Assembly (NCBI RefSeq): GCF_035594125.1
Contig: NC_087190.1
Location: forward strand, 9,150,104 to 9,214,103
DNA length: 64,000 nt
Origin: Scylla paramamosain
Lineage: Eukaryota; Arthropoda; Malacostraca; Decapoda; Portunidae
Direction of reading: 5' to 3'
Positions 1-49,845 of this stretch are shown here, one piece after another. Position numbers and translations under genes: made by a program. The notes below the pieces were generated by a model, which worked only from the letters and a program-made list of their open reading frames with translations, did not search any database and had not been told where the DNA came from. Every line of letters starts with the position of its first letter. The stretch's first letter is position 1.

Positions 1-1750
1 CGTGAGGCCTAGTTTGGACTAATGCTGTGGTATTTATGTAAGGGCACTGTTGAAATTGCTGAGATTGAGTACCCTGTTGCAGTATTGTATTGAAATTGCT
101 GGGACTCCGTTGTATACATATTAGGGGTCACTGCTGAGGGCAGGAAGACTCCTGACTCTGCTCGGGAGGTGGGAGTTTCCTACCTTGCGGAGTGTGACGG
201 AGGCGGGGAGCAAGCTGCTCCCTTGCTAGGACCAGACACGGTGGGTATTTACTCACATCGTGAGCCGCCCCTGTTGGCAGCTACTACTACAGTGTACCCG
301 AGGAGGGTTCTGTTTCTCAAGGACGTGTTGCCCCACTGCTTGCCAAGGCAGGAGTGGATGGCGAGGGTTGGGCAGTGTTGGTAGGTAATAATACTATTTA
401 CACTAATTTTAATAGCCGGCAGAGAGAGGATCACGGAGGTTTGATGCTTCATTTTGTTGTGCCATCTGCAGTTAAGAAAGCAAATAGTATGTAGCGGCCT
501 CTGATGTTAGGCCGGTTTGGAGTCGGATTGATTCAGGAGCTGTTGAGGCGGTTTTGGTGGTCGAATGTGGCCACGTGTGTTAGGTGTAACCACATTAGTC
601 AGGTTGGTAAGCCTGATTACCTCTCTTCTGGAGGCCTTCTTCCCCGTGTTAGGTCAGGTGCTGTTCCCCCTGGTGTGGGGATTATGAGTAATGTTGCCCA
701 ATTCCTCCTTCCGGGAGAATTATAATTATGTAGTTGGCGCAAGCGTTAAGGCGCAGCGTCGAAAGGCAGCGCTAAATGAGGGTGCCGGTGATGTGTTGCT
801 TGCTGGGGCTTTGTTTTGCAGAGTTGTTGTTACTGGTTAGGTTCTGGGCCTGAGCAATGTAGTATGTGATGATGGATGCCGTCCTCTTCGAAGCGACAAG
901 GTATCGCATTTGATAAGAGAGGACTGCACACAGGAGCAGTTGTTGGGAGCAATGGGGCTGGCCCAGAGGTGCGTTGGCCGGGCTCATGCTGAAGCTAGTG
1001 TTGTATTGTGCGGGAGTTTGGCTCCCTGTGCAGGAATGGGTGTGCTGCATCCTAGAGAGGAGCAGCCATCAGCTCGTTGCGGCGATACCTGTGTCATCGA
1101 GTGGTCAACGGAAGGAATGAGATGTGATAGTAATGCTGACGTTAAGAAGCAAGCTTGGTCGTGTCATGCCCATTAAGTACCATTCTGTTTTAATAAGAGC
1201 GTCCAGAAGGCACTTTTTTTTTTTTTGCCGAGGAAGTGGCACTTTTGTTCTATTCATCTCATGGGTATGGCACAGAGGCTCTGAGGAGCCATTAGCAGCC
1301 AAGCGGGAGTGAAGTTATGGGCAAGGAAGGCCCGGAGGAGAGATTAATATGTTCTTCAGTAAGAGACTTGAAGGGGCCAGTGAGTTCAACTAGATTGGCG
1401 GCCCAGAGGAAAAGTTTGTTCAGCCAGGAAGAGTATTGCCTGGTAGTGCCATGATGATACACCAGAAGGTTACGGCCCCTGTTGGGCTCGTTGAGTGCTG
1501 CAAGGATGTAGTGATGTCATTGTTTGGTGACTTGTAATTGTAAAAGGTGGAGGAAAAACAAGAGAAGAAGGAGTAGGATGGATAGTGAAGAGAGCAGAAG
1601 TGAGAGTAGGTGTAGAGATGGACCAAATATAGGATAGAGCAGACGACGGAGACAGAGAAGTTGGAATAGCCATAGTTTGTGGAGATGTGACACAGTTATG
1701 ATTCTCTGCAAGAGTAAACCTGCATACCGATGTAGCTGGGGAGATCACAG
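1..1750 (+). repeat. Interspersed repeat family A, copy A1 (unclassified, partly coding)
   Basis: This stretch is homologous to two other places in the window on the opposite strand. Positions about 300-740 match the reverse complement of 46020-46480, and about 850-1500 match the reverse complement of 25250-26000. Similarity is clearest at protein level: a segment near 915-1090 reads LIREDCTQEQLL and later CAGMGVLHPREEQPSARC, and the 25753-26031 copy has LMKEDCTRKQLL and CAGMGMLRPEKEQPSARC. Conserved cysteines and amino-acid-level conservation suggest decayed coding sequence of a mobile element. No RT, integrase or transposase motif was recognised, so the class is unknown. Confidence 0.6.
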
Positions 1751-2053
1751 TTCCTAGCTGAAAACCAGAGACAAATTTCGAGGGAGGAGCAGGAGAAAGA
1801 AGCAGGCGTTTGTGTATGAACAGCCAAATAGAGCCCTATTGGTTCCTGTTTTTATAATAACTGTTCGTGGTAGTGTTCTAGTAGCATCTGTTTCATAATT
1901 TGCGCAAGCCCTGTTTGAGTATAATGTGATTTGCCCCAATTAGTTATGTGCCAAGTTTTGAATTTATTATAGCCTAAAATTTTGTAAGCTTTAGTGTATC
2001 TTCCCAAATTTTCTGTTTGGGAGAGGTCATGCAGCATAAGGCAAGAGGAAGGA

Positions 2054-2055
<2 letters not shown>

Positions 2056-2125
<70 letters not shown>
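2056..2125. repeat. (GA)n microsatellite
   Basis: About 70 nt of nearly pure GA dinucleotide. The interval 1750-2055 before it shows no recognisable gene or repeat. Confidence 0.95.
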
Positions 2126-2127
<2 letters not shown>

Positions 2128-2243
2128 AAGGAAGGTGTGAGAAGTGGACGCACCACGGTCCCGTAGCTCCGATCGCTTCCCAAGTTTTAGTGTAAATTTT
2201 TCCGTACATAGTCACTCCCTTTCCTCACTTAAATTCATATTTC

Positions 2244-2483
2244 CCAGTGTTCATTTGTATTGAGTCCCACACATTATTTAGTTCGAGTCCCCCTTTGCTT
2301 ATAGAGTAATCAGTAGGCATCCAGCCATTACTAATCATAATTATTTTCGAAAGACAACCGTCCAGTGTTCATTTGTATTGAGTCCCACACATTATTTAGT
2401 TCGAGTCCCGCTTTGCTTATAGAGTAATCAGTAGGCATCCAGCCATTAGTAATCATAATTATTTTCGAAAGACAACCGTCCAT
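2244..2483. repeat. 118-bp tandem duplication (two units)
   Basis: Unit 1 starts at 2244 and unit 2 at 2362, a period of 118 bp. Only about two substitutions separate the units, so the duplication is recent. The sequence is non-coding. From 2484 to about 3000 I see a short G-run at 2516-2527 and nothing else recognisable. Confidence 0.92.
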
Positions 2484-2999
2484 ATTGTACCATTTAGCAG
2501 CCTGCGACGAGCTGCTGGGGGGGGGGGATGGTAGGCTGCACCTGTGTTCCACCCCCTTCCCTCGTGCATAAATCATTTTCTGTGACAAGTGGCGAGTCTC
2601 AGTTCTCACGCTCAGTCGTTGTGCAGTTGGTTAGTGCTGGGGGGTGGGACGTGCGTCTCAAGGTAGGACGAGGCTTAGAGAATATGCATGATTTAAGCTT
2701 TGAGGGCGTTTAGTTTCATATCATATTTGTCTAGTTAAGGCAGTAAGCCCATGCTCATGACAGATCGGAGATAAGCATCTTCAAAAGCCTGTCTGTGTGA
2801 TTCTTGGGCCTCGTTACTTAATATCTAGGCCACATTGACTCCTTGATTATTTGAGTCAAGTATTTGGCGTCTGGAATTGGTCAGTGGAATCCCCCTCTTT
2901 TGTGTGTGAACTAGTTGTTCGGTGTTTGTTATATTTGGTTATATTGTTAAATGATTCCGGGTTCCAGTGTTCTTTTACGGATTCTGGGTCCAGACGATT

Positions 3000-3615
3000 A
3001 CTGTAACACTACCATGTAGTAAATTATACTTCTTCCCCAGAACGTGTCATTTCTGTGGGAGGAATGGGGATGGGGGGGGGAGGTGCAGGACCAGTCTTTT
3101 GGGAAGCTGAATATAATACTGCACAGCAGAAGGAAATAATATTCTATGGATGTTGGTGGATTTTTGTCTTGTTGTTTGACAGGGTGGTAGTCCATAGAAT
3201 ATTATAATCATTATATGTACTTGTTGCTTGTCGTAGCTGTGCCTCCTACAACGATTCTTTCCCAGCTGTTGGAGTGACGTTTCGGTTGCGGTGTTCCCTT
3301 GCATGTAGGAGGTGAAATAGGCTGGAGACCTCAGTTGTATAATTCACCACAGGAGGCCAAGAATGTGTGAAGGTGAATGTGACCTTTGCATTACTCTGCG
3401 TAGGATGCAGTGTAGAGAGGCTGACCCTGGTAGTGGCAGTCAAGAAAAGGAGCGGAACCTGGTGTTATAACCGTTTATTTAGAGGGTGCAAGAGACCAGA
3501 AGGATCTTGTAACCCATAACTGGGCCCTTCACTATATTACGTATGTGGTAACATAGAAGGCTCGCTGAGGTAAAGGTTGCCATGAAAGGGGTGAAATTTG
3601 TGGTTGTAACAATAA

Positions 3616-3619
<4 letters not shown>
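3000..3619 (+). repeat. Repeat family B, copy B1
   Basis: This is one of five copies of an unclassified repeat (B1 here, B5 3699-4452, B2 17591-18330, B3 19700-20143, B4 38880-39613). Shared landmarks, in order, are a stem-loop (here 3136-3150 with 3191-3205), a block resembling GATTCTTTCCCAGC (3250-3272), a block around GGAGACCTCA (3322-3332), a GCAAGAGACC block (3489-3498) and a 3' end resembling GTGGTTGTAACAATA followed by a microsatellite. The 5' limit is uncertain. The microsatellite tail suggests a retroposed sequence, but no coding motif was found. Confidence 0.6.
3136..3205 (+). other. Stem-loop of repeat B1 (15-bp perfect stem)
   Basis: Positions 3136-3150 are the exact reverse complement of 3191-3205, with a 40-nt loop. 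The same position in the other four family-B copies also forms a stem, but with different bases. Confidence 0.85.
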
Positions 3620-3703
<84 letters not shown>

Positions 3704-3732
3704 CTACAACCACAATTTTCAACCCTTTCACC
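3584..3732. repeat. Inverted repeat around a (TA)n tract
   Basis: The 3' end of B1 (3584-3613) and the 3' end of inverted copy B5 (3700-3732) are imperfect inverted repeats separated by (TA)n at about 3620-3700. Because (TA)n is self-complementary, the whole block can fold as one long hairpin. Confidence 0.85.
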
Positions 3733-4452
3733 AAGCTGCCCCACCTGGACTAGCTCCAATGAGCCACCTCTTACGTGGACTCAGTGCAGAGCTGACAAAC
3801 GGGTGTACAGGGTCCCTTGTGGCTCTTGCACAACTGTCGTAATTCAAGGTCACACTAAGCTGAGGTCACCAGACTTTTACTCAACCACAGACAAGGGAAA
3901 TACTCCAAACAACACTTAACACCCACAGCTGGAGAAGAATCGACAACCACATCTAGGAAAAACAGTTAACATACAATAACATGTATATGGTTGAGGTATA
4001 ATATCCTGTTGGGCTTCTGCCCTCCGTGACAGTCCTCCCACTGCCCAACAGTGTCATATCCCCAAGCCAATTAGTATCATTTACTGCCCCCTGGGCAACA
4101 GGCCTTGTCAGGACATGAGGAGGGAGTAAAGTTTACTATGCGGCTAATTACTTAGGTCTTCTGCGGCTGAACTGCATCAGCCCACAGTATCATTTCAGAC
4201 AAAATAGGGTCACTAACAAGGAACACCAGAAATTACAGTAAAATGAGTGCCCATAAACACACAGAGGGTCAGTCACCGCTCACTGCGCCAGCTCGACATA
4301 TATATACTCTCATAAAGGCGAGGAGTCACTTCCCTGGGTATGGTGTGTAATTCGCAACTACCCTTACTGGCAGACTTCTATGGAGATTCTTATTCTGTAT
4401 AAAACAGGTCGGAGCATAATGCCAGTAGTGACTCACTTATCTCTTTAAGGCA
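3699..4452 (-). repeat. Repeat family B, copy B5 (inverted relative to B1)
   Basis: Read on the - strand this matches B1 and B4 over the middle and 3' part. The stem-loop here is 4006-4014 paired with 4043-4051, a perfect 9-bp GC-rich stem with a 28-nt loop. The block reading CTCCCTCCTCA near 4117 also matches B4 near 39190. It ends where LINE 5'-terminal sequence begins at about 4453. Confidence 0.55.
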
Positions 4453-5970
4453 ACCAGGAGGAGGCATTAGACACCTGCCTCTACTACATTCAACCTACAT
4501 TCAACCTGTTCCTAAAAGGGTGACCGCTCTAATCCCTCAAACTACCGTCCTATTGCTTTAATTTCCTGCTTATCTAAAGTTTTTGAATCTATCCTCAACA
4601 GGAAGATTCTTAAACATCTATCAGTTCACAACCTTTTATCTGATCGCCAGTGTGGGTTCCGTCAAGGCCGCTCTACTGGTGATCTGGCTTTCCTCACTGA
4701 GTCTTGGTCATCCTCTTTTAGAGATTTTGGTGAAACTTTTGCTGTTGCCTTGGACATATCAAAAGCCTTTGATAGAGTCTGGCACAAAGCTTTGATTTCC
4801 AAACTACCCTCTTACGGCTTCTATCCTTCTCTCTGTAACTTCATCTCAAGTTTCCTTTCTGACCGTTCTATTGCTGCTGTGGTAGACGGTTACTGTTCTT
4901 CTCCTAAATCTATTAACAGTGGTGTTCCTCAGGGTTCTGTCCTGTCACCCACTCTCTTCTTATTATTCATTAGTGATCTTCTAAACCAAACTTCTTGTCC
5001 TATCCACTCCTACGCTGATGATACCACCCTGCACTTTTCCACGTCTTTTCATAGACGTCCAACCCTTCAGGAGGTAAACATATCACGCAGGGAAGCCACA
5101 GAACGCCTGACTTCTGATCTTTCTAAAATTTCTGATTGGGGCAGAGCAAACTTGGTATTGTTCAATGCCTCAAAAACTCAATTCCTCCATCTATCAACTC
5201 GACACAACCTTCCAGACAACTATCCCCTCTTCTTTAATGACACTCAACTGTCCCCCTCTTCTACACTGAACATCCTCGGTCTGTCCTTTACTTATAATCT
5301 GAACTGGAAACTTCACAGCTCATCTCTAGGTAAAATAGTTTCTATGAAGTTAAGTGTTCTGAGACGTCTCCGCCAGTTTTTCTCACCCCCCCAGCTGCTA
5401 ACTCTGTACAAGGGCCTTATCCGTCCATGTATGGAGTATGCTTCACATGTCTGGGGGGTTCCACTCATACTGCTCTTCTAGACAGGGTGGAATCAAAAGC
5501 TTTTCGTCTCATCAACTTCTCTCCTCTAACTGACTGTCTTCAGCCTCTCTTTCACCGTCGCAATGTTGCATATCTAGCTGTCTTCTACCGCTATTTTCAT
5601 GCTAACTGCTCTTCTGATCTTGCTAACTGCATGCCTCCCCTCCTTCCGCAGCCTCGCTGCACAAGACTTTCTTCTTTCTCTCACCCCTATTCTGTCCACC
5701 TCTCTAACGCAAGAGTTAACCAGCATTCTCAACCATTTATCCCTTTCTCTGGTAAACTCTGGAACTCCCTGCCTGCTTCTGTATTTCCACCTTCCTATGA
5801 CTTGAATTCCTTCAAGAGGGAGGTTTCAAGACACTTATCCATCAATTTTTTACCACTGCTTTGACTCTTTTATGGGACTGGCATTTCAGTGGGTATTTTT
5901 TTTTATTAGATTTTTGTTGCCCTTGGCCAGTATCCTTCCTACATAAAAAAAAAAAAAAAAAAAAAAAAAA
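4453..5970 (+). mobile_element. LINE-1w copy 1, internally deleted, poly(A)-tailed
   Basis: The first about 28 bp resemble the extreme 5' end of the family (GGAGGC..TAGACACCTGCC, as at 38300 on the - strand). The sequence then jumps to the reverse-transcriptase region at about 4490, so the 5' UTR, endonuclease and first part of RT are missing. RT is readable at 4750-5481, with the DISKAFDRVWH motif, GVPQGSVLSPTLF and the catalytic YADDTT. It continues in another frame at 5427-5864 through the C-terminal domain. One missing G near 5455 explains the frame change. A 25-nt poly(A) tail ends it at 5970. Confidence 0.85.
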
Positions 5971-6994: not shown

Positions 6995-7577
6995 GTGCTC
7001 GCGCAGTTGTTACATGAGAACGTAAGAACATAAGAAATGAGGGAAGTTGCAAGAAGCCACCAGGCTTACACGTGGCAGTTCCTGTGTGAAATATACTTAC
7101 TTGTTTCCACCTATCATCCCCATCCATAAATCCGTCTAATCTTCTCTTAAAGCTCCTTGATCTCTTAGCACTAACAACTTGATTACTTAGTCCGTTCCAT
7201 TCATCTACCACTCTATTTGAGAACCAATTTCTTCTTATCTCTTTCTTAAACCTAATTTTTTCCAAGTTTGAACCCGTTATTTCTTGTTCTGTCCTGGTTG
7301 CTGATCGTAAGAATTTTGCTTACGTCCCCTTGTTATAACCTTTATATCACTTAAAGACTTCTATCAGGTCACCTCTTAGCCTACGTCTCTCTATAGAATG
7401 TGAATTTAACAGCTTCAATCTCGCGGATGTGGGGACCAGAACTGCACAACGTAGTCTAAATGAGGTCTGACTTGCGCCAAATATAACTTTAATGTTACTT
7501 TAGGCCTTCTACTTTTAACACTCCTAAAAATAAATCCTAATAACCTATTTGCCCTGTTTCTGGCCTCTATGCATTGC
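6995..7577 (-). mobile_element. CR1/L2-like LINE 3' fragment nested in the hAT element
   Basis: On the - strand it encodes the C-terminal end of a CR1-like reverse transcriptase: CIEARNRANRLLGFIFRSV and VRPHLDYVVQFWSP (about 7420-7575), then RRNWFSNRVVDEWNGLS and SFKRRLD (7100-7260). It ends in the AAGAACATAAGAAA-type 3' tail near 7015-7040. hAT transposase sequence resumes on both sides, so this is a 5'-truncated insertion. A fragment of the same kind recurs as a foldback at 32106-32283. Confidence 0.8.
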
Positions 7578-11737: not shown

Positions 11738-14700
11738 GGCTGTAGACACCTGCCGAAACGATAATTACTCCCAGTGAGGTCTAAAGCACTGTTCAGGGGG
11801 TGCTGTGAACTTATCATTAAACCCAGCTGTGACCTCACTGAACGTTTCCCTTTGTGTCTCACAACGCAAGGGGGCAGTCACAGCCTGCCCTCTAAAGACA
11901 ACTCTCTTCCTCCACACAAAACTACAAGCACCTAATAACACACACACCCTTCACTCAAAATTTTAAAATCATCATGGCGACTCCTACACCAGCCTCGGAG
12001 TCCCCATCTGGGGAGGACACCATAAATGTCCCCAGGTTGGACTGCCTTTCTGTCAACGACCCTAATTTTCTTGACACCCCCCTCAACTTTTTTTTCATTA
12101 ACTTAACTGCAACATTCGCGGTCTAAGATCTAATTTTCAATCTGTAGAACACCACCTCTCCTCTTCTAAACCTCATCTTCTTTTCCTCACTGAAACTCAG
12201 GTGTCTGAGGCAACTGACAGTAGCCCCTTTTCTGTTCCCTCCTACTTTCTCTTTCCTCATTTTCGATCCAAAGCTGGATACTGCGTTTATGTGCGCAATG
12301 ACTTAACCTGCTCTCGTGCCCACGCTCTTGAATCTTTCGAGTTTTCCACCATCTGGCTACGACTACAGAGTCACTCTCAAACTAAAATTATCTGTGCTGT
12401 ATACCTCTCACCTAACTCCTCTGACTATAAGAAATTCTTTGACTATTTAACTTCCAAAGTGAAACACATTCTGAACCTCTTCCCTTTTGCAGAGATCTCC
12501 ATTTTTGGAGACTTCAATGTTCACCACCAGCTTTGGCTTTCCTCTCCCTTCACTGACCATCCTGGTGAACTAGCCTTCAACTTTGCTATCCTCCATGATC
12601 TAGAGCAATTGGTGCAACACCCTACTCGTATTCCTGACCGTCTTGGAGATACGCCCAACATTCTTGACCTTTTCCTGACCTCTAATCCTTCTGGTTATGC
12701 TGTCACCCTTTCTTCTCCGTTGGGCTCCTCCGATCACAATCTCATATCTTTATCTTGTCCTATCACTCCAATCCCTCCTCAGGATCCCCCTAAGCGAAGG
12801 TGCCTCTGGCGTTTTGCCTCTGCTAGTTGGGGGGACCTGAGGAGGTATTTTGCTGATTTTCCTTGGAATGACTACTGCTTCCGTGTCAGAGACCCGTCTT
12901 TGTGTGCTGAGCGCATAACAGAGGTGATAGTGTCTGGCATGGAAGCGTACATTCCTCACTCTTTTTCTCGTCCTAAACCTTCTAAACCTTGGTTTAACAC
13001 AGCTTGTTCTCGTGCTATACATGATAGAGAGGTGGCCCACAAAAGGTACTTAAGCCTTCCATCACCAGAATCTCATGCACTTTATATTTCTGCCCGGAAC
13101 CATGCCAAGTCTGTTCTCCAACTAGCCAAAAACTCCTTCATTAACAGAAAATGTCAAAACCTTTCAAGATCTAACTCCCCTCGTGAATTCTGGCATCTAG
13201 CCAAAAATATCTCCAATAACTTTGCTTCTTCTTCTTTCCCCTTCTCTACTTCAACCAGATGGCACCACTGCTATCACATCTATTTCTAAAGCTGAACTCT
13301 TTGCTCAAACCTTTGCTAAAAACTCTTACCTTGGACGATTCTGGGCTTGTTCCTCCCTCTCCTCCTACTTCATGCCACCTATTAAAATTCTTCGCAATGA
13401 TGTTTTCCATGCCCTCGCTGGCCTAAACCCTCGGAAGGCTTATGGACCTGATGGGGTCCCTCCTATTGTTCTCCGAAACTGTGCCTCCGTGCTTGCACCT
13501 TGCTTAGTCAAACTCTTTCAGCTCTGTCTGTCAACATCTACCTTTCCTTCTTGCTGGAAGTTTGCCTACATTCAACCTGTTCCTAAAAAGGGTGACCGTT
13601 CTAATCCCTCAAACTACCGTCCTATTGCTTTAATTTCCTGCCTATCTAAAGTTTTTGAATCTATCCTCAACAGGAAGATTCTTAAACATCTATCACCTCA
13701 CGACCTTCTATCTGATCGCCAGTATGGGTTCCGTCAAGGCCGCTCTACTGGTGATCTTCTGGCTTTCCTTACTGAGTCTTGGTCATCCTCTTTTAGAGAT
13801 TTTGGTGAAACTTTTGCTGTTGCCTTGGACATATCAAAAGCTTTTGATAGAGTCTGGCACAAAGCTTTGATTTCCAAACTACCCTCCTACGGTTTCTATC
13901 CTTCTCTCTGTAACTTCATCTCAAGTTTCCTTTCTGACCGTTCTATTGCTGCTGGGGTAGACGGTCACTGTTCTTCTCCTAAATCTATTAACAGTGGTGT
14001 TCCTCAGGGTTCTGTCCTGTCGCCCACTCTCTTCTTATTATTCATTAATAATCTTCTAAACCAAACTTCTTATCCTATCCTCTCCTACGCTGATGATACC
14101 ACCCTGCACTTTTCCACGTCTTTTCATAGACGTCCAACCCTTCAGGAGGTAACCATATCACGCAGGGAAGCCACAGAACGCCTGACTTCTGATCTTTCTA
14201 AAATTTCTGATTGGGGCAGAGCAAACTTAGTATTGTTCAGTGCCCCAAAAACTCAATTCCTCCATCTATCAACGCGACACAACCTTCCAGACAACTATCC
14301 CCTCTTCTTCAATGACACTCAACTGTCCCCCTCTTCTACACTGAACATCCTCGGTCTGTCCTTTACTTATAATCTGAACTGGAAACTTCACATCTCATCT
14401 CTAGCTAAAATAGCTTCTATGAAGTTAGGTGTTCTGAGACGTCTCCGCCAGTTTTTCTCACCCCCCCCCAGCTGCTAACTCTGTACAAGGGCCTTATCCG
14501 TCCATGTATGGAGTATACTTCACATGTCTGGGGGGGTTCCACTCATACTGCTCTTCTAGACAGGGTGGAATCAAAAGCTTTTCGTCTCATCAACTCCTCT
14601 CCTCTAACTGACTGTCTTCAGCCTCTCTCTCACCGCCACAATGTTGTATATCTAGCTGTCTTCTGCCGCTATTTTCATTCTAACTGCTCTTCCGATCTTG

Positions 14701-15032
14701 CTAACTGCATGCCTCCCCTCCTTCCGCGGCTTCGCTGCACAAGACTTTCTTCTTTCTCTCACCCCTATTCTGTCCATCTCTCTGACGCAAGAGTTAACCA
14801 GTATTCTCAATCATTCATCCCTTTCTCTGGTAAACTCTGGAACTCCCTGCCTGCTTCTGTATTTCCACCTTCCTATGACTTGAATTCCTTCAAGAGGGAG
14901 GTTTCAAGACACTTATCCACCATTTTTTGACCACTGCTTTGACCTTTTTATAGGACTGGCATTTCAGTGGACATATTTTTTATTAGATTTTTGTTGCCCT
15001 TGGCCAGTGCCCTTCCTACATAAAAAAAAAAA
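11738..15032 (+). mobile_element. LINE-1w copy 2, near full length
   Basis: It begins with the family 5' end (TAGACACCTGCCGAAACG) and has about 235 bp of 5' UTR. One long coding region starts at the ATG at 11973. It ends with a 3' UTR and a short poly(A) at 15022-15032. At about 3.3 kb it is one of two near-complete copies in the window. No gag ORF lies upstream of the endonuclease. Confidence 0.9.
11973..14930 (+). pseudogene. LINE-1w endonuclease-reverse transcriptase, lightly damaged
   Basis: The ORF starts MATPTPASESPSGED. A frameshift near 12105 breaks the first about 45 codons from the APE-type endonuclease (12201-13289). That domain shows [15 protein letters not shown], the metal-site [21 protein letters not shown] and the catalytic-histidine segment [11 protein letters not shown] second frameshift near 13240 leads into RT (13222-14478), with DISKAFDRVWH, SGVPQGSVLSPTLFLLF and the active-site YADDTT. 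An extra C in a C-run at 14461-14469 shifts the frame into the C-terminal domain (14508-14930), which has FIPFSGKLWNSLPASVFPPS. The motifs place it among APE-type LINEs near Jockey/CR1 (inference). Confidence 0.88.
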
Positions 15033-17590
15033 TTAACCTGCTCTCATGCCCACGCTCTTGAATCTTCCGAGATTCCCACCATTTGGCTAGTACTACAGTG
15101 TCATTCTCAGACTAAATTTATCTGTGTTATATACCTCTCACCTAACTCCGCTGAGTATAAGAAATTTTTGGGCTACTTAACTTCCAAAGTGAATTACATT
15201 TTGACTCTCACAACCAGGTTTGACTTTCTTCTCCCTTCACTGATCATCATGGTGAACTAACCTTTAACTTTGCTAATTTCAACGGTTTAGAGTAACTTGT
15301 GCAACACCTGTGTAATATTCTTGACTGTCTTAGAGATACGCCCAATATTCTTGACTTTTTCCTAACTTCTAATCCTTTTGTTTATCCTGTTACCCTGTCT
15401 TTTCCGTTGTGCTCCTCCGATCACAATCACATATTTATATATTGTCTTATCGCTCCAACCCTCCTTAGGCTCCCGCAAAGCGGAGGTGCTTCTGGCGTTT
15501 TTCCTCTGCCAATTGGGGATACTGAGAAGGTATTATGATGATTTTCCTTGAAATGATTGCTGCTTTCGTGTCAGTGACCAGTCTCTGCGTGCTGAGCACA
15601 TAACAGAAGTGATAGTGTCTGCCATGGATGTGTACATTCTTCACTCTTTCTCTTGACCTAAACCCTCGTAACAGTGGTTTAATACTGACTGATCTCGTGC
15701 TAAGCATTATAAAGGGATGGCCCACAAAAGGTGAATTAATATGTGCTTTATATTTCTGCACGGAATTATCCCTAGTCTGTTCTCCAACTAGCCAAAAACT
15801 CCTTTAATATAACGTGTCAAAATCTTTCAAGATCTAACTCCCCTTTTGACTTTTGGCACCTAGCCAAAAAAAAAAAAAAACATGTCCAATAACTTTGCTT
15901 CTTCATCTTTCCCTCCTTTATTTCCATATGATATCACAACTGCTATATCATACATTTCCAAACCTAAACTTTTCATTCAGCTAAGATCTCTACACTCAAT
16001 GATTCAGGACTTGCTCTTCCTTCTCCTCCACCCTCTGACTACTTCTTGCTATCCATTAAGATTCTTCACAATGATGTTTTCCATGGCCTCGCTGGCCTAA
16101 ACCCTCCGAAAGCTTAACGACCTCATGGGGTCCCTCCTATTGCTCTCCAAATCAGTGCCTCCGTGCTTACAACTTGCTTAGTCAAACTCTTTCAACTCTA
16201 CCTTCCTAGAAGTTTGCCTAAAATCAACCTGTTTGTAAAAAGGGTGACCGTTCTAGTCTGTCAAACTACCGTCTTATTGCTTTAATTTTCTGCCTATCTA
16301 AATTTTTGAATTTTTCTTCAATAGGAAGATTCTTAAACATTTATCACTTCACAACCTTCTACTTGATCGTCAATACGAGTTCCGTGAAGGCTACTACTAC
16401 TGATATTCTTTTTTTTTTTTTTTTTTTTATTGAGCCTTGGTCATTCTCTTTTAGAGATTTTCTTGAAAAATTTTGCTGTTGTCTTAGAAATAGCAAAAGC
16501 TTTTGATAGAGCTTGCCACAAAGCTTTGATTTCCAAACTACCCTCCTACAACATCTATCCATTCCTTTCTGACCGTTCTATTGCTGTTGTGGTACATTGT
16601 CCCTGTTCTTCTTCTACATCTATTAAGTAGTGTTCCTCAGGATTCTGTCTCTCACTCATCCTCTTATTGTTATTCATCAATGATCTTCTAAACTTCTAAA
16701 CTTCTTTTCTTACCCAGTCCTATGGTGATGCACCATGCTGATGCAATCCTAAACAGTGCACCCTAAACTTTTTCACGTCTTTTCGTAGACGTCCAACCCT
16801 TCTGGAAGTAAATAATTTATGCAGGGAAGAGAACGCCTGACTGATGATCACTCTAAAATTTATGATTGGGGCAAGACAAACTTATCGTTCAATGCCTCAA
16901 AAACCCAATCCTTCCATTTATCAACTCAACACAACCTTTCAGACAACTATCATATCTTCAGTGACAATCAACTTTCTCCCTCTTCTACGCTGTCTCTTGG
17001 TCTGTCCTTTGATTATAATTTAAACTGGAAACTTAACATCTAATCTCTAGCTAAAACTGCTTCTATGAAGCTGGGTGTTCCGAGTCGTCTCCATCAGTTT
17101 TTTTTTTTTTTTCTTCTTCTTCTTCTTCTTCTCACCCCTATCCATCCATGTATGGAGTATGTTTAACATGTGGGGGAGGGGCGGAGTTCCACTCATACCG
17201 CTCTTTTAGACAGGGTGGAATCAATTTTTTTCGTCTTATCTCTTGTCCTCTAACTGACTGTCTTCAGTCTCTTTCCCATCGCCGCACCTTTGCATGCTTT
17301 GCTACCTTCTACTGCTATTTTCATGCGAACTGTTCTTTTGATTTTACTGCTTTGGACCCTGTTCGGGGACTGGCATCTCAGTGGGCTTTTTATTTTTTAA
17401 TTGGATTTTTGTTGCCCTTGATCAGTGTCCCTTCTGTATAAAAAATAAAATAAAAATGGCTCCCCTGCTCCCACGGCATCATTCCTCAAGACTTTATTCT
17501 TTCTTTTACCCCTATTCTGTCCATCTCTCTAATCATTCGTCATCATTCTCTGGTAAACTGCTTCTGTATTTCTACCTTCATATGATTACC
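15033..17590 (+). mobile_element. LINE-1w copy 3, old and degenerate
   Basis: It abuts the poly(A) of copy 2 and begins within the endonuclease region. Endonuclease and RT can be followed to about 17580 but with many indels: DTPNILDFFLTSNP at 15340, DRACHKALISKLPSY at 16500 and SHAFSLV-type C-terminal blocks at 17460-17580. Homopolymer T-runs interrupt it at 16411-16429 and 17100-17114. It is clearly older than copies 2 and 10. Confidence 0.8.
17340..17456 (+). mobile_element. Very short LINE-1w 3'-end insertion nested in copy 3
   Basis: About 115 bp of the family 3' UTR (GACTGGCATCTCAGTGGGC ... CCCTTGATCAGTGTCCC) with an A-rich tail interrupts the C-terminal coding region of copy 3, which resumes at about 17457. 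Confidence 0.7.
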
Positions 17591-18330
17591 CGCTACGTAG
17601 TCTAGTGCGGGGTTGACTATGGGTTATAAGTCTTTTTGGTCTCTTGCACGCTTTAAACAGACGATTGCAACTCTAGGTTCAACACCCATGAAGTCTGCTA
17701 ATATTTCGGGTCGGGTTCCCTAGTTTACCTCCGATGTACTCAGGGTTACAATCAGTTTTACAGGTCCCATCAGGTCTCCTATAGTCAATTAAACAATGAG
17801 GTCGCCACTCCGCCTCAAGCAGAGCATGGATAAAGGAGTAATAAATGTCTTAACAGACAGTGAACATGCACCACTTGCTGGGAAAAAACGAAAACCACAT
17901 ACTAGGAAATACAGCTACAACAGGTGACAAATACATATAATGATTGTAATATTCTATGAGCTTCCACCATCACAGAAACAGCAAACAAAATCCATCCACG
18001 CTCATAGAATATTACATCTCCTACCATCAAGCAACACCATTTACGATTTCTCGGCCACCAAGGACCAGCTGGGTATAGAGACGAAGCAGACGCCACTGCA
18101 CAGCACAGACACGGTTATTCTCTAGGTCCAAAGCTATTAAGAAAACTCTGAATACCAGTTGCATTTACAATACCACAAATACTACATATGTAAGAACAAG
18201 CACCCCACAGAGAAAGGAGAGGGTCAGCTGACTGCTCTGATACGCCCAAGACCCGGTTTCATCTCTGGGGAGTCGGCACACTAACGCCGGACACTGAGCA
18301 GGGACCGGCACAGGTCTGCCTTAACACGCC
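17591..18330 (-). repeat. Repeat family B, copy B2
   Basis: On the - strand it carries the family-B order: the stem-loop (17946-17962 with 18001-18017), the CCCAGCAAG block near 17880, a GGCGACCTCATTG block near 17800 and a GCAAGAGACC block near 17645. The part from 18330 to 18900 shows no confident homology or gene. It contains only ordinary sequence with GAGAGGGATG-like stretches. Confidence 0.6.
17946..18017 (-). other. Stem-loop of repeat B2 (17-bp perfect stem)
   Basis: 17946-17962 is the exact reverse complement of 18001-18017, with a 38-nt loop. The inner pairs differ from B1 on both sides of the stem and still match. Confidence 0.85.
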
Positions 18331-19227
18331 ACACGCAGTCATTCTTATGACTGGCGTGTTACCTTCTTAAAATGGCAGGGGCGGTACTGCCACTTCATGC
18401 CCTCCAAACTGTATGTATGTGCCAGTCCTCTCTCAATTTCGTCAGCGCATCCACTCTCTTTCCTCGCTTCCATCCAACTAGCTTAAACAAAAGGAGCCAG
18501 TGTCACTTTGCCCACCTCGTGCGCCTCTCACAAGGCTGAGAGAAGTCATATGACAGAAAGGGAGAGGGATGAAAAACGGGGTTGTTTCACATCACCCACT
18601 GGCTCACTCTTACTTAAACCAACCTCACTCAACACAGATTAATATCTTTCAGAAATTCTAGTGGACATTATACAAGGGATGGATACAATCTGATTATCTG
18701 GTAGGCTATACGAACTCAACTAAATAATCTGTGGGACTCAATCTGAAATAACAATTGGAAGCAAGGGAAATTAAATGAGGAAGGGAAGCGACTACAGACT
18801 GAGAGTTTTATAGTAAACTCTCCGTGGAGCGGCCAGGCAGTCACCGCACCTCGGGTATCTAATGTACTAATTGATATTCACCCAGCACCCTTGATACGCC
18901 CATAATATATATATATTTTTTTAAATAAATAAATAAATAGATTAATTCTTCATTAGGTTTGTGAGTTGTTTAGAGTGTGGCGAGCGTGTGGTTGACTACC
19001 TTCTCCCTCCCTGTTCCTCCCCTGTTGTTTCCCCCATTTCACACACTTCAGTAAACACAGACCGCCTGAGAGGCCGAGAGGGAATCTGTTCTCATGGTTT
19101 AGTCACAGTTGTAGAAAGCCAGGAATAACATGCGCACAAGAGGCAGAGAGAGAGAGGCAAGGAGACAAAGGGGGGATATATGATAGAACCCTTGCAGTAG
19201 GTATTACTTGAGCGTAGAAGGTAGTAG

Positions 19228-19507: not shown

Positions 19508-19699
19508 GTCCCAGCCCGCAGGGTAAGGACTAATTTCTACAGGAGCCTGCCTATGATCATCGTACCTATGTAATTCGAAGAGATAGCATTTTGCAACGAT
19601 TCCTCAGCGTTTGCTGAGCATCCTGGCATGTATAGGAACGTTTGGTTGGCTCCTGTTTTGTATGTTGGCTGTTGTGTTCTCGTGTCTTTAGTGTTTTGT

Positions 19700-20141
19700 G
19701 AAGTTCAGAGCTTACTACTGGGAGCTCTGAAGCCAGAAGATTTCACAATATTCTGCGTATGTGTGGGTGTCTGTAGTCCTCCACGGGAGTGCATATAAGC
19801 TGTACACAGGTGGAATTTTCTGTGAGTGTGGATGGCTTGTCTCTTGTGGGAGGTAACTCACAGAATATTATAAGTTTCATCTCTATGTCTTTTCTCCTAA
19901 CCGTGCCCCCCTAGCACACAGTTTCCGATTTCTCAGCAAGTAGGGGTTTGTTTGTTATTTAATATATTCCTTTCTCGGTCGGTGGATTAAACCGAGTGGC
20001 GATTTCATAGGTTTGATAGCTTTAGACGAACAGTAAGTGGGTGGATTCGTCGCGTGTATTAGGCTAGAAGGAGCTAGTCTAGGGAAGGCTAACCCATGTG
20101 TAGTGGCAGCTGTGAAGGAGGCCGAGTCCTGGGTCGTAACA

Positions 20142-20143
<2 letters not shown>
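19700..20143 (+). repeat. Repeat family B, copy B3
   Basis: Contains the stem-loop (19814-19827 with 19856-19869, one mismatch), a CGATTTCTCAGCAAG block near 19926, a GAGTGGCGATTTCATAG block near 19993 and the 3' end GGGTCGTAACAATA. In this copy the 3' end runs into a (GA)n tract instead of (TA)n. Confidence 0.55.
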
Positions 20144-26971: not shown

Positions 26972-28775
26972 TTAGTCAGGAGCGCATGAGAAAGCATCCG
27001 CAATAAGGTTATCTTTACATCTTATGTGCCTAATTTCCATACTGTTAGACTGTAACGTTAAGCATCACCTAGTCAGACGCTGGTTCTTATTTCTCATGCG
27101 AGACAAATTGCAGTGGATTATGGTCACTGTACACTTTAAATTTCTGGTTAGTGCTACCAAGATGTCAAATTTTTCTAGGGCCATCAGTAAGGCGACAGCT
27201 TCTTTTCCTATAGTGCTGTATTTTTTTTTTTTTTTTTTAGGATTTGAACTTTATTGACATGTGACATATAGGATACATTATGTTATTGTCATCAGTCTGC
27301 AATAGTACAGCACCAGCACCAATATCACTTGCATCCACTTGTACTTGGAATGGACGATGAAAATCAGGTGCTCTCAGGACTGGCGTTGTAATCAGTAGAG
27401 AAAAGATGTTATCAAATGCCGTCTGACATGCAGACGACCACACAAACTTCTTGTGAAAGCTGACAAGGTCTCTGAGTGGAGCAGCAACTACCAAGAAGTT
27501 CGGATAGAATCGTTGATAATAGCCAGCCATCCCGAAAAATCGTTGTACGCTTTTCTGATTGCTTCTTATGGGTAGGTTACAGATAGAATCAACCTTGGTT
27601 GCAACAGGTGCGACAATTCATCCACCCACTTCATGTCCCAGGAAGGTAATCTGCACATGCCCAAATTCATTCTTGGTTAAATTTACAATAAGTTCGGCAT
27701 CTGATAGACATTGAAAGAGGGCTTTCAGTGCTGCAAGATGCTGAGACCAGGAAGAGGAGTATACCACTAGATCATCCAGGTACATGCTTACCCCTTTAAG
27801 GCCTGTGATAACTACTGACATTAGCCTCTGAAAGACTGCCGGGGAATTTCGCATCCCAAAGGGAAGGACAGTGTACTGGTAGAAGCCGTCAGGTGTGGAA
27901 AACTGTCAGTTCGGGTGAGCTGATTTATCTTTCGATAGTCTGTGCACAAGTGAAAACTTCCATCAGACTTGGCCACAAGTATACATGGGGAGACCCACTC
28001 ACTATTGCTTGGTTCTGCTAGACCATGTTGAAGCAGGAACTGGACTTCTTCTTTCAGGATCTGTCGTTTGTGATTGATTGATTGACATGATTGGGCGACT
28101 GTTTGATAGGAACAGTACCTTCCACCAACCAAACCTCATACAGGACAACAGGACTGGGTTTGGCCACATCTGCAAAAATCTCTCTAAATTCTTCCAGGAG
28201 CTCATGCACCTCCATCCTCTGCTCCTTAATTCTTAAAACAAAGTCCATTAAGTATATCAGAATTCTTTAACTTGACCTCTTTTCCACTCATAAAATCATC
28301 ACAGTCATCTTGATCCTTCCATTCCTCAGCACTGTTAAGATCTTGTTTGACATACACCAAGTCTACATCTTGTTTGACATAAACCAAGTCTACATCATTC
28401 CTTGGGTAATATTCCTTTAGGAGATTTACATGGACTAATCTCTTCTCTTTCCGCCTACCAGGTGTAACAATAACATAATCTACTTCACTCTCTTTACTGA
28501 TTATTTCAAACAGCCCTTGGTATTTTGATTGGAGAGGAAACCTCCTTAGTGGCATGTATGTATGTATGATATAATTATGATGATATGATATGATGATATG
28601 ATATGTATGTATGTATGATATGTACTGAATCTTTATCATATTGTCTCTTCATTTTTGACTGAGCTTTCACCAAGTTTTCTTTAGCTAATGCTTGGGCGCT
28701 TCTCAGTCTGTTCTTCATTGTTACTGCATATTCACTAAAAGTCCTCGGAGACCCCATCTGGGTAGGGGACCACAA
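26972..28775 (-). pseudogene. Ty3-type pol fragment with integrase-RT-RNase H order (Gmr1-like)
   Basis: Read 5' to 3' on the - strand, first comes the integrase C-terminal part (28775-28300: LAKENLVKAQSKMKRQYDKDS, then YVIVTPGRRKEKRLVHVNLLKEYYP). RT follows (28248-27618: LVAKSDGSFHLCTDYRKIN, AVFQRLMSVV, catalytic YLDD in SMYLDDLVVYSS). RNase H and tether come next (27530-26972: QVQVDASDIGAGAVLLQ, NKNQRLTR, IADAFSCAPD and a stop). Standard Ty3 elements have integrase after RNase H, whereas the Gmr1 group has it before RT (established). A CATA-rich microsatellite (28550-28625) and a T-run (27221-27238) interrupt it. Stops and frameshifts show it is dead. Confidence 0.85.
28550..28625. repeat. 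ATGATATG/TATG-type microsatellite inside the integrase coding region
   Basis: Short repeats of GTAT and GATAT replace about 20 residues between YDKDS and LRRFPLQSKYQGLF of the integrase C-terminal region, and change the frame. Confidence 0.8.
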
Positions 28776-34036: not shown

Positions 34037-34629
34037 TCCTCCATATACAGTTTTTATGCAGGAAGAAAAATAGCTTGAATCTAGAACAGGAAAAATAAAT
34101 CAACAAAAGGACAGGAAAAGGATGGAGTGCCTTTGGAAAGCCAAGTAATGTAATGAAGAATAATCTCCCACTCCCAATAAAAAAAAAAAGTAGATAGGTA
34201 ATAAGTGAATTTTACCAGCTATAACATATCTTTCGGAGAGCTTGGAACCTGTACGAAGAATAGATTTTTAGTTAAATAGTTATGAATCCATGGTATACCA
34301 TAAAATATAATGAGGAGCCTTAAAAATCACTTACATGGTAAAGCAAAGGGAGTAGTTAGTGTCTATGGAGGAATAAAAAATTGTACTAGTTTACTAACAT
34401 GAAGTGGACTCTGTATATCCAAGGACATCCAGGGTCCTTGCTAACATAACTACCCGTGGTAGTTATGAGAAAAAAGTACTAAACTCACCTTGATACATCC
34501 CAAGAGTGATCATAGTGAACCAATTTTATCCATATAGCAGCAATAGTAGTTCTACTTACTTGAACACTATCTGGGTGTATATGATATTCTATTTTCCCAC
34601 TGATGAGTTAACCAATCTTTCATTTTCAG

Positions 34630-34831
34630 GCTTGTTATTCGGATTCGTGTTGACGCAACAGATGCACTGGTCTCCTTGGGCAAGAAGTTTGGTGTGCTTC
34701 CTGGTGATGCAGAAACACTTCTGGTTGCTGCTCACACTCTTGGATTGAATGTAGTTGGAGTAGCTTTCCATGTTGGCTCTGGCTGTCGTGACCCTTCAGC
34801 CTTCCACCAAGCAATTATTTCTGCTAAAATG
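34630..34831 (+). CDS. ODC: Ornithine decarboxylase, internal exon n
   Basis: ODC makes putrescine from ornithine, the first committed step of polyamine synthesis, as a PLP-dependent cytosolic homodimer. This exon encodes [20 protein letters not shown] ... [18 protein letters not shown] ... IISAKM. It contains the R of the LVIRI segment and the conserved FHVGSGC motif, whose His stacks on PLP and whose Ser contacts the phosphate (family knowledge). The acceptor is TTTTCAG before 34630 and the donor is GTTAGT from 34832. The first base completes a split codon, and the last codon is whole (phase 0). Retained GSGC and, in the next exon, GGGFPG favour active ODC over antizyme inhibitor, but the catalytic Lys and Cys exons are not in view. 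Confidence 0.93.
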
Positions 34832-34898
34832 GTTAGTTTTGAATTAGGAACTGTGAAGAGGAAGTTGATGTCTAAGATAGAAAATCACATGTATAAAC

Positions 34899-38316
<3,418 letters not shown>

Positions 38317-38438: not shown

Positions 38439-38879
38439 CTCATCATTATGTGGGGTGTAATTAGAGAAAAAGGCGATGAAGGAAATAAGGAGGAGAGACA
38501 GAAGAAAGGTTACGTGGAACGAAGATGTACAATGTACGATAACTACCGAGCTGCTCGCTCGAGGAGACTACTGCAAGATTCCCTGCGCACAGTTGCTCTC
38601 CTTCCTTAATTAATTTTCGTTTGATCGTAACTATTTTACAAAGATCCCATTTTGTTTGTCAGTTGAGTGAGTGAAGGGAGACGAGCGGGCAAAGATGGGA
38701 TGGATTCCCCTCTCCCTCCTCCCCCCTCACATGAGTCATAGCTGGGATGAGCCCGGGCTTTGTGTTTCCACGAGTGAGTCACTGCCTTTATATTGCGCGA
38801 GTCAGATGTACATTTGGAGATAGTGTTGTTCTGAAGAAAGTGGGAGCGATACAGCTACCGGGCCAGTTGCTTTAAGGGG

Positions 38880-39749
<870 letters not shown>

Positions 39750-48206: not shown

Positions 48207-49252
48207 TTATAGTATTACACACAAGTTGTCATTGAAATGTTCGATGAGCAAAGAGTGTGCGCAGAGGAAATCTGGGCCAAGCAGTGGTCGTGAGAAATCG
48301 GCGATGGTAAACATCCACTTGAAACGACGGCTGTTGAAGTTCAGGTGGATGGTGCGTGTGCTGTATGTCTTGATGTTGCTTCCGTTGGCTGCTGTCAAGA
48401 CTGGATCTCTCTTCCCGAAGGGAGTGTCTTTGCTAGAGGTTGGCAAAACACTAATTTCTGCCCCTGTATCGACGAGGAAACGGCGCCCAGAGTGGTGATC
48501 ATTGACATAGAAAAGTCGATGTTCACGGCTGGCGGCAGTAGCTATTACCGACGGTCGGCTATGGAGTTTACCGGATGCATGCAGGATGGTATCGACGGCC
48601 CTCGGAGCCCCAACGTTGGGGATAGTAACATCATTGCTCGTGAGTATTGGCCAGCAACTTCAGTGTTGTTTCATCAGGACGAGTACTGGAGGTTCGCTCA
48701 GAACGTTGGGTTACAGCTGTGATGTTTGTAATGGAGGTTTCGTTTTGCTGCTTGACCTACTACAGCACATCTGCTCTCGCCGCCAACTGACGGGGGTGGG
48801 TGAATTCGTCATTCGCAAGGATCAGGCGGATGTCGTCAGGCATCTGGTCCAGAAAGATTTGTTCGAATAGGAAGCAGGGCGTATAGTCCATCCATCTGGG
48901 CAAGCATCTCGTTCATTAGTATGGATGGTATGTGGTCGCCGAGGCCATCCATGTGCAAAAGTTTTGTCGCCCTTGGACTCTTGATTAGGCTGAAGGTACT
49001 GTTAGGGAGCTTCTTGATACCTTCGTATTTGCCGTCAGCATGAGGGTGGCGAAGGAAGTCGATGACGTGCCCAGCTGTTTCCTGATCCAGTGCACTGACC
49101 ACATAGTAATATTTGGTATTGTCGGCAGTGATTTAGCGTATGTGAAAATGGGCTTCAACCTATTCGAGTCACACCTGGGGTTGTGAAATCCAGAAAGTGG
49201 GTAGCTTCAGTGATACTCCATTCCTTTGATCTTTGCTGTCTTTTGAAGACAT
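48207..49252 (-). pseudogene. Ty3-type gag-protease fragment
   Basis: The - strand start is MSSKDSKDQRNGVSLKLPTF at 49252, then gag KYYYVVSALDQETAGHVIDFL (49100) and LLHMDGLGDHIPSILMNEML (48930). A knuckle-like CYYPQRWGSEGRRYHPAC lies near 48590-48640. The aspartic protease follows, with active-site DTGAE near 48470 and FTIADFSRPLLGPDFLCAHSLL at 48207-48446. Frameshifts separate the pieces. It is truncated before RT. Gag coats element RNA, and the protease processes the polyprotein (family knowledge). Confidence 0.82.
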
Positions 49253-49636
<384 letters not shown>

Positions 49637-49652
49637 TCCCACTCTTTTACAG

Positions 49653-49805
49653 GTCGTTGAGAAAGCTGTGGCTATTGGTTTCCAGCCCTACTTACTGGAT
49701 ATTGGTGGGGGGTTTCCTGGCACACACAATCCTCCCATCGATGATTTTGCTGAACACATCAACATAGCATTGGATGAATTTTTCCCGGAAGGATGTGGTT
49801 TTGAG
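49653..49805 (+). CDS. ODC: Ornithine decarboxylase, internal exon n+1
   Basis: 51 codons: [23 protein letters not shown] then [23 protein letters not shown]. The GGGFPG loop binds the PLP phosphate in ODC (family knowledge). The acceptor is CTCTTTTACAG and the donor is GTAACA at 49806. Joining to 34831 in phase 0 reproduces the family spacing between the FHVGSGC and DIGGGFPG motifs without a gap, so these exons are consecutive across 14.8 kb. The next expected segment (AEPGRYYV) was not found downstream. Confidence 0.93.
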
Positions 49806-49845
49806 GTAACAAAGAAAATTATCGGAGTTTTTTTTTTTTTCTTTC

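Follow-up and report, generated by a model that had tools for sequence, protein, structure and literature searches.

The window, by which we mean the whole 64,000-nucleotide stretch of DNA analysed here, holds five copies (B1 to B5) of a repeat, family B, and each copy carries a stem-loop 270-410 bp ahead of the repeat's 3' end, with a loop of 28-40 nt. We find that family B is the long terminal repeat (LTR) of a Ty3/Gypsy-type retrotransposon with a SCAN-like gag. The copies, their hairpins and the neighbouring parts of the element to which B1 belongs are as follows.

1..2017, + strand: probably the decayed interior of the element that has B1 as its 3' LTR, assigned from its position
2027..3611, + strand: B1, 3' LTR of about 1.58 kb, subfamily I, preceded by a purine tract at about 2018-2026 and ending in ...GTGGTTGTAACA; lower border approximate
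3136..3205, + strand: B1 hairpin, stem of 15 bp (3136-3150/3191-3205), loop of 40 nt
3700..4400, - strand: B5, LTR fragment, subfamily III, inverted relative to B1 across an (AT)n tract
3994..4061, - strand: B5 hairpin, 4006-4014/4043-4051 plus the lower stem
17564..18905, - strand: B2, LTR fragment, subfamily I-like; borders approximate
17943..18019, - strand: B2 hairpin, stem of 17 bp (17945-17961/18000-18016)
19508..20143, + strand: B3, LTR truncated at its 5' end, subfamily IV, directly after a LINE poly-A tail
19808..19874, + strand: B3 hairpin, arms 19814-19827/19856-19869, with one T-T mismatch
38446..39616, + strand: B4, LTR, subfamily II, ending in an (AT)n tract; lower border approximate
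39246..39317, + strand: B4 hairpin, with two short helices in its fold
Locus L009, 8675-9115, just upstream of the window: gag-like frame, putatively of the element of B1

A single (AT)n tract (3612-3701) separates the ends of B1 and B5, which face it in inverted orientation, and B5 stops near a LINE copy that starts at 4494, a member of a family with many copies and with endonuclease and reverse transcriptase domains (4494-5964, 11738-15032, 35024-38313 and others). An ornithine-decarboxylase-like gene on the + strand is represented by two consecutive exon pieces, at about 34628-34834 and 49647-49808, which match Orn_Arg_deC_N at profile positions 106-181 and 179-237; B4 lies with other repeats within the roughly 14.8-kb stretch between them. 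Gypsy-type fragments at 27237-27617 (-), 48207-48659 (-) and 52424-52978 (+) hold parts of reverse transcriptase and RNase H and weakly protease-like parts. Bacterial and archaeal genomes, scanned once by pattern for stray sequence of crab origin, gave no match.

Family B is the LTR of a Ty3/Gypsy-type retrotransposon

The ends of family B, TGTTA...TAACA, are short inverted terminal repeats of the TG...CA kind. Among the rows listed of 25 aligned copies, the 3' border is sharp (...GTGGTTGTAACA), with a terminus of TGTAACA or close to it, and the 5' terminus reads TGTTATG... in loci L010 and L026 of 12 aligned rows. This pair of termini fits the form TGTTRNR...YNYAACA that passages of PMC3601003 give for animal Metaviridae (Ty3/Gypsy), and a GT-rich stretch near the 3' end is also alike; unlike the Gypsy LTRs modelled in those passages, family B has no poly(A) signal (AATAAA) at a fixed place in the LTR, and it measures 1.2-1.6 kb (B4, B1) against training averages of 174-695 bp. 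Past the LTR end, a primer-binding-site-like sequence is seen as TGG at a distance of 5 nt in L013 and L127, where a tRNA-complement-like stretch follows right after it, and as TTG in L009, and it is absent behind the other LTR copies looked at. A polypurine tract stands ahead of B1 (GGGAGAGG) and of the copy in L027 (GGGAGAAGG), two of 12 rows.

The LTR copy in L009 lies 5.1 kb upstream of B1 on the same strand and is 82% identical to it, and the interval between the two holds a gag-like frame of 146 aa behind the L009 LTR and no recognised pol. The frame itself matches no Pfam family, but PF02023 (SCAN domain) is found in 7 of its 21 homologs, and the two homologs that carry a species name come from Scylla paramamosain and Portunus trituberculatus. 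A SCAN-related gag is what family B shares with Gmr1-like Gypsy elements: parts of PMC4592553 describe the gag of those elements as similar to the SCAN domain. We regard the family B element as an old and abundant Gmr1-like Ty3/Gypsy family of a portunid-crab-like genome. Assignment to a SINE, MITE, foldback element or Helitron was rejected because the TGTTA...TAACA ends, the primer site and the gag fit an LTR.

Other traits of the copies bear on their history in the genome. The flanks of the LTRs, read by eye, hold no clean target-site duplication. Many copies genome-wide adjoin or end in (AT)n or (AG)n, through either target preference or repeat growth after insertion. A unit of about 130-140 bp near the LTR 3' end occurs at least 2 times in 12 of 20 loci (for instance at window 3340-3611, and up to four times in L016), and in L022, at about 7230-7490, a stretch of about 66 bp that includes the 5' arm of the hairpin stands in tandem in some five units. 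Pairs of LTR matches with identical scores on one contig (C44:9523089 and C44:9616615; C29:2757874 and C29:1752032; C14:1147547 and C14:1214424) suggest segmental duplications.

The hairpin is paired across copies of the LTR

The arms of the B1 hairpin, ATAATATTCTATGGA (3136-3150) and TCCATAGAATATTAT (3191-3205), form 15 perfect pairs. A sequence-only reading of the window had described a stem at this place in all five copies, and on re-reading the sequence we find the positions and pairing it gave for B1, B3 and B5 borne out and its two short helices present in the fold of B4, while the 17-bp stem of B2 is real but lies one base off (17945-17961/18000-18016, not 17946-17962/18001-18017). When each copy is folded by itself, B2 and B5 are set apart from their shuffles (z of -3.01 and -3.38), and B1, B3 and B4 are not (-1.24, -1.18 and -0.90); because single-copy folding is weak evidence, the case for the hairpin rests on comparison across the family. 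A model built from 97 copies, the window five among them, recovers all five in the window; beyond these it matches there just twice, on the strands opposite B2 (E 0.009) and B1 (E 0.025).

Searches of the 1.21-Gb genome that contains the window, with B1, B4, B5, B3 and one L020 copy as DNA queries, gave 322, 656, 1125, 331 and 622 first-look candidates, with 40 candidates scored per query in sets that may overlap. The B1 query contributed 39 places, its remaining listed rows being pieces adjacent to these, and the B4 query all 39 of its other places. From B5, B3 and the L020 query we kept 20 rows each, out of 43 other rows, 40 and 41 respectively. One identical place was dropped in subfamily I (L029) and one in subfamily II (L083). 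The first four subfamilies comprise 123 distinct rows (I 42, II 39, III 21, IV 21), where the 42 rows of subfamily I are 38 places, B1, B2 and two misfiled rows, L019:7803-7865 (IV-like) and L020:5883-5954 (subfamily V). The arms are in the register of an alignment made without regard to structure, and the 19-pair register was read from the subfamily II majority, which favours it over slid versions.

In these 123 copies, standard pairs occupy 84% (I), 87% (II), 83% (III) and 89% (IV) of pair cells, compared with 33-49% when one arm is slid by 1-3 columns. At least 75% of the pairs are kept in 39 of 42, 33 of 39, 20 of 21 and 20 of 21 copies of subfamilies I to IV; the plus strand folds with z below -2 in 23 of 42, 23 of 39, 10 of 21 and 12 of 21.

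The majority stems of the subfamilies differ in their upper half. At pairs 8, 10, 12 and 17 both sides differ between subfamilies and still form standard pairs, and one extra T-A pair in II and III, gapped in both arms of I and IV, is a compensated one-pair indel. In pairwise comparisons of majority stems, which are not independent of one another, all 14 two-sided differences have a standard pair in both of the stems compared, and one-sided differences keep pairing in 14 of 20. Non-standard majority pairs are C-A at pair 6 of III and T-T at pair 7 of IV; pair 1 of I and pair 19 of III are unpaired.

Conservation of sequence is uneven along the structure. The lower stem, TATAATA/TATTATA, is conserved (0.82/0.94), while the upper stem of about 10-12 pairs varies in sequence between subfamilies and stays paired, its arms being no better conserved than the flanks (0.71/0.65 vs 0.65/0.68). 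The loop is not conserved overall (0.63) but reaches at least 0.8 at TGG on its 5' side and GG on its 3' side, and within one subfamily many copies have one common stem sequence. The proposal that the hairpin is conserved in position and not in sequence is thus accurate between subfamilies and for the upper stem, but not for the fixed lower stem or within subfamilies; the companion proposal, that pairing is kept though the arms differ, is upheld both by the slid comparison and by the tree null below (0 of 1000 runs).

Covariation exceeds null models for the stem as a whole

For a tree null, a tree was built from flanking columns and the substitutions of each column were placed at random on it. 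The canonical fraction over pairs 2-18 is 0.875, against 0.726 ± 0.042 under this null (reached in 0 of 1000 runs), and double-changed cells number 179, against 57 ± 30 (2 of 1000); a variant that keeps internal and terminal branches apart gives 0 of 1000 for pairing and 1 of 1000 for double changes. The number of pair types is not above the tree null (238 and 321 of 1000 runs reach the observed value). Simultaneous compensated change falls on 16 branches, 15 of them terminal and one with two leaves, and these events are poorly placeable because a tree from short, noisy flanks is poorly resolved.

A separate covariation count used 97 of the 123 rows, hand-chosen mostly for complete typical length, and 11 unambiguous pairs. 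Here 89.7% of cells are paired vs 33-63% slid, double-changed cells number 100 vs 40.6 ± 11.1 and covariation is 0.351 vs 0.258 ± 0.009 (each reached in 0 of 500 shuffles), with no excess of pairs with a double change (59 of 500 shuffles) or of pair types (201 of 500). In an R-scape-like G-test on the 123 rows, no single pair passes correction for all column pairs (best E 35.6), and the stem sum is 189 vs 1.4 ± 45 (maximum 149 in 150 runs); on 45 rows, mostly retrieved with B1, no pair is significant and the stem sum is 25.3 vs 1.2 ± 10.1 (maximum 22.6 in 40 runs). For the 97 rows RNAalifold gives no pairing at all; on single subfamilies it gives none for II or IV and little for I or III, a silence for which we take decayed copies to be the reason. 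Covariation in the collected copies, proposed in the sequence-only reading as the way to check the hairpin, is seen in pairing, double changes and summed covariation, all above their nulls, with no single pair significant in the G-test.

A fifth subfamily carries the stem with other bases

A prediction was set before subfamily V was retrieved, at a time when one V copy, whose own fold has no clean stem, had already been seen: the stem should recur at the homologous position and be built of different bases in its upper part. Subfamily V has this stem, and its apical bases differ. In 21 copies and 18 positions, with the register read from the V majority, 81% of cells are paired vs 38-54% slid, rising to 90% without a 2x2 C/C internal loop, and within-subfamily shuffles reach the observed pairing in 21 of 500 cases. 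At least 14 pairs form in 17 of the 21 copies, the 5' arm is lost in L144 and L148, and majority pairs 9 and 11 are C-G in V vs T-A or T-G in I-IV.

A probable RNA element of active lineages

We judge it probable, though well short of certain, that family B, as the LTR of an old SCAN-gag, Gmr1-like Ty3/Gypsy element, carries a hairpin that acts in the element's own RNA, is selected while its lineages are active and decays after insertion. This RNA reading rests on analogy with the stem-loops that the LTRs of HML, MLV and lentiviruses have near the beginning of R: the hairpin would work much as retroviral R-region stem-loops do, with candidate roles in transcription, 3'-end formation, export or packaging; selection would keep it for as long as the lineages multiply, and inserted copies would lose it. 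Of the explanations first offered for the stem, maintenance by selection is supported by the compensated double changes and the one-pair indel between subfamilies, by pairing above the tree null and by the outcome in the fifth subfamily, whereas regeneration by template switching in genomic DNA finds no such support (below); that the repeat is an LTR had gone unrecognised.

Asymmetry between the strands in folding was tried as evidence for RNA and dropped because it is mostly composition: it is strong on majority letters, but shuffles of the individual copies account for it in four of the five subfamilies, and only in II do the two strands differ in energy by more than their shuffles. G-T cells number 228 vs 95 A-C cells in the stem of a strand that is itself G- and T-rich, and slid columns likewise favour G-T in five of six cases. 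A TCAKTY motif resembling an initiator lies at +125 (125-150 nt downstream) in 27 of the 40 copies of subfamily I; it was rejected as a family-wide initiator, since it is missing, as read by eye, from most III and IV rows.

The hairpin may alternatively be a DNA-level element, a promoter or protein-binding palindrome in U3 whose lower stem is a TATA-like box and whose upper-arm pairing reflects dimeric binding or cruciform DNA. The lower stem TATAATA/TATTATA, fixed in both arms, could be such a box, and the mostly compositional origin of the strand asymmetry that RNA predicts is also in keeping with DNA. We nevertheless hold this to be unlikely, as the upper arms are complementary yet no better conserved than the flanks, when a protein that reads sequence needs no pairing, and loops of 28-40 nt would be long for cruciform extrusion. 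A reading on the model of TAR is improbable: a trans-acting factor would bind the hairpin as an RNA element of SCAN-gag retrotransposons in invertebrates, with either a host protein or the element's own Gag recognising the loop G positions, while pairing alone would matter in the upper stem and the lower stem would double as a TATA-like box; upper stems would then diverge between lineages with pairing kept.

Changes private to single copies, scored against their own subfamily, bear on how pairing was kept. One-sided private changes number 144, of which 34 still pair, and two-sided private changes number 7, 4 of them paired, vs 4.4 and 2.3 in shuffles, few events with low power. Because private changes are mostly one-sided and subfamily-level ones compensated, we place compensation in multiplying lineages, and dead copies seem to decay arm by arm. 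At this low power, the lack of an excess of two-sided changes speaks for selection while lineages are active rather than for repair of one arm from the other in genomic copies. Template switching, acting on genomic DNA or while active elements are reverse-transcribed, could have regenerated a hypervariable hairpin; this would suit arms that differ between subfamilies and the terminal position of most single-branch compensated changes, but we give it very little credence: paired two-sided private changes show no clear excess (4 vs 2.3 expected), and the wobble or mismatch pairs common to at least 15% of a subfamily (14 G-T and 2 A-C pair positions) persist where copying from arm to arm would erase them. 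Switching by reverse transcriptase in active lineages may still have occurred. We attach an equally slight probability to a functionless palindrome, present in the ancestral LTR and merely shared by its copies, which is compatible with the few independent deep events and the lack of any single significant pair in the G-test; against it, the tree null with equal substitutions per column loses pairing (0.73 vs 0.875, 0 of 1000), and the fifth subfamily is paired with different apical bases.

Relation to known LTR stem-loops

The preferred reading, a hairpin selected in the RNA of active elements, has its closest counterpart in the stem-loops found where R begins in the LTRs of vertebrate retroviruses, among them those of HML and MLV and the lentiviral TAR and poly(A) loops, as described in portions of PMC2664473. 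Those portions state that secondary structure may be conserved with primary sequence less so, and that copies without the stem-loop may have lost it by mutation after integration. Family B is alike in having a stem-loop inside the LTR whose structure is kept while its sequence varies, and it differs in belonging to an invertebrate Ty3/Gypsy element and in having no known binding protein. Retrozymes, described in parts of PMC4918200 as hammerhead ribozymes in LTRs, are alike as structured RNA in LTRs, but a retrozyme or other Rfam RNA was rejected: compared with Rfam at E up to 1, for the window and for 20 loci, the hairpins gave no family, ribozymes included. Titles and the beginnings of abstracts listed by literature searches hold nothing on this hairpin or on decapod or Gmr1-like LTR stem-loops, which does not prove absence.

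Conserved LTR stem-loops are thus already known in retroviruses, as far as the portions of PMC2664473 show, and what is new here is the invertebrate Ty3/Gypsy case. Outside the vertebrate retroviruses in which they have been described, such stem-loops are difficult to detect, since models based on sequence fail to capture a structure when its bases drift. The five subfamilies of this Ty3/Gypsy LTR, each with candidate copies in the hundreds, provide compensatory evidence in an invertebrate element, and the comparison of subfamily-level with private changes offers a way, applicable to other LTR families, to distinguish selection acting on active elements from repair of DNA in genomic copies.
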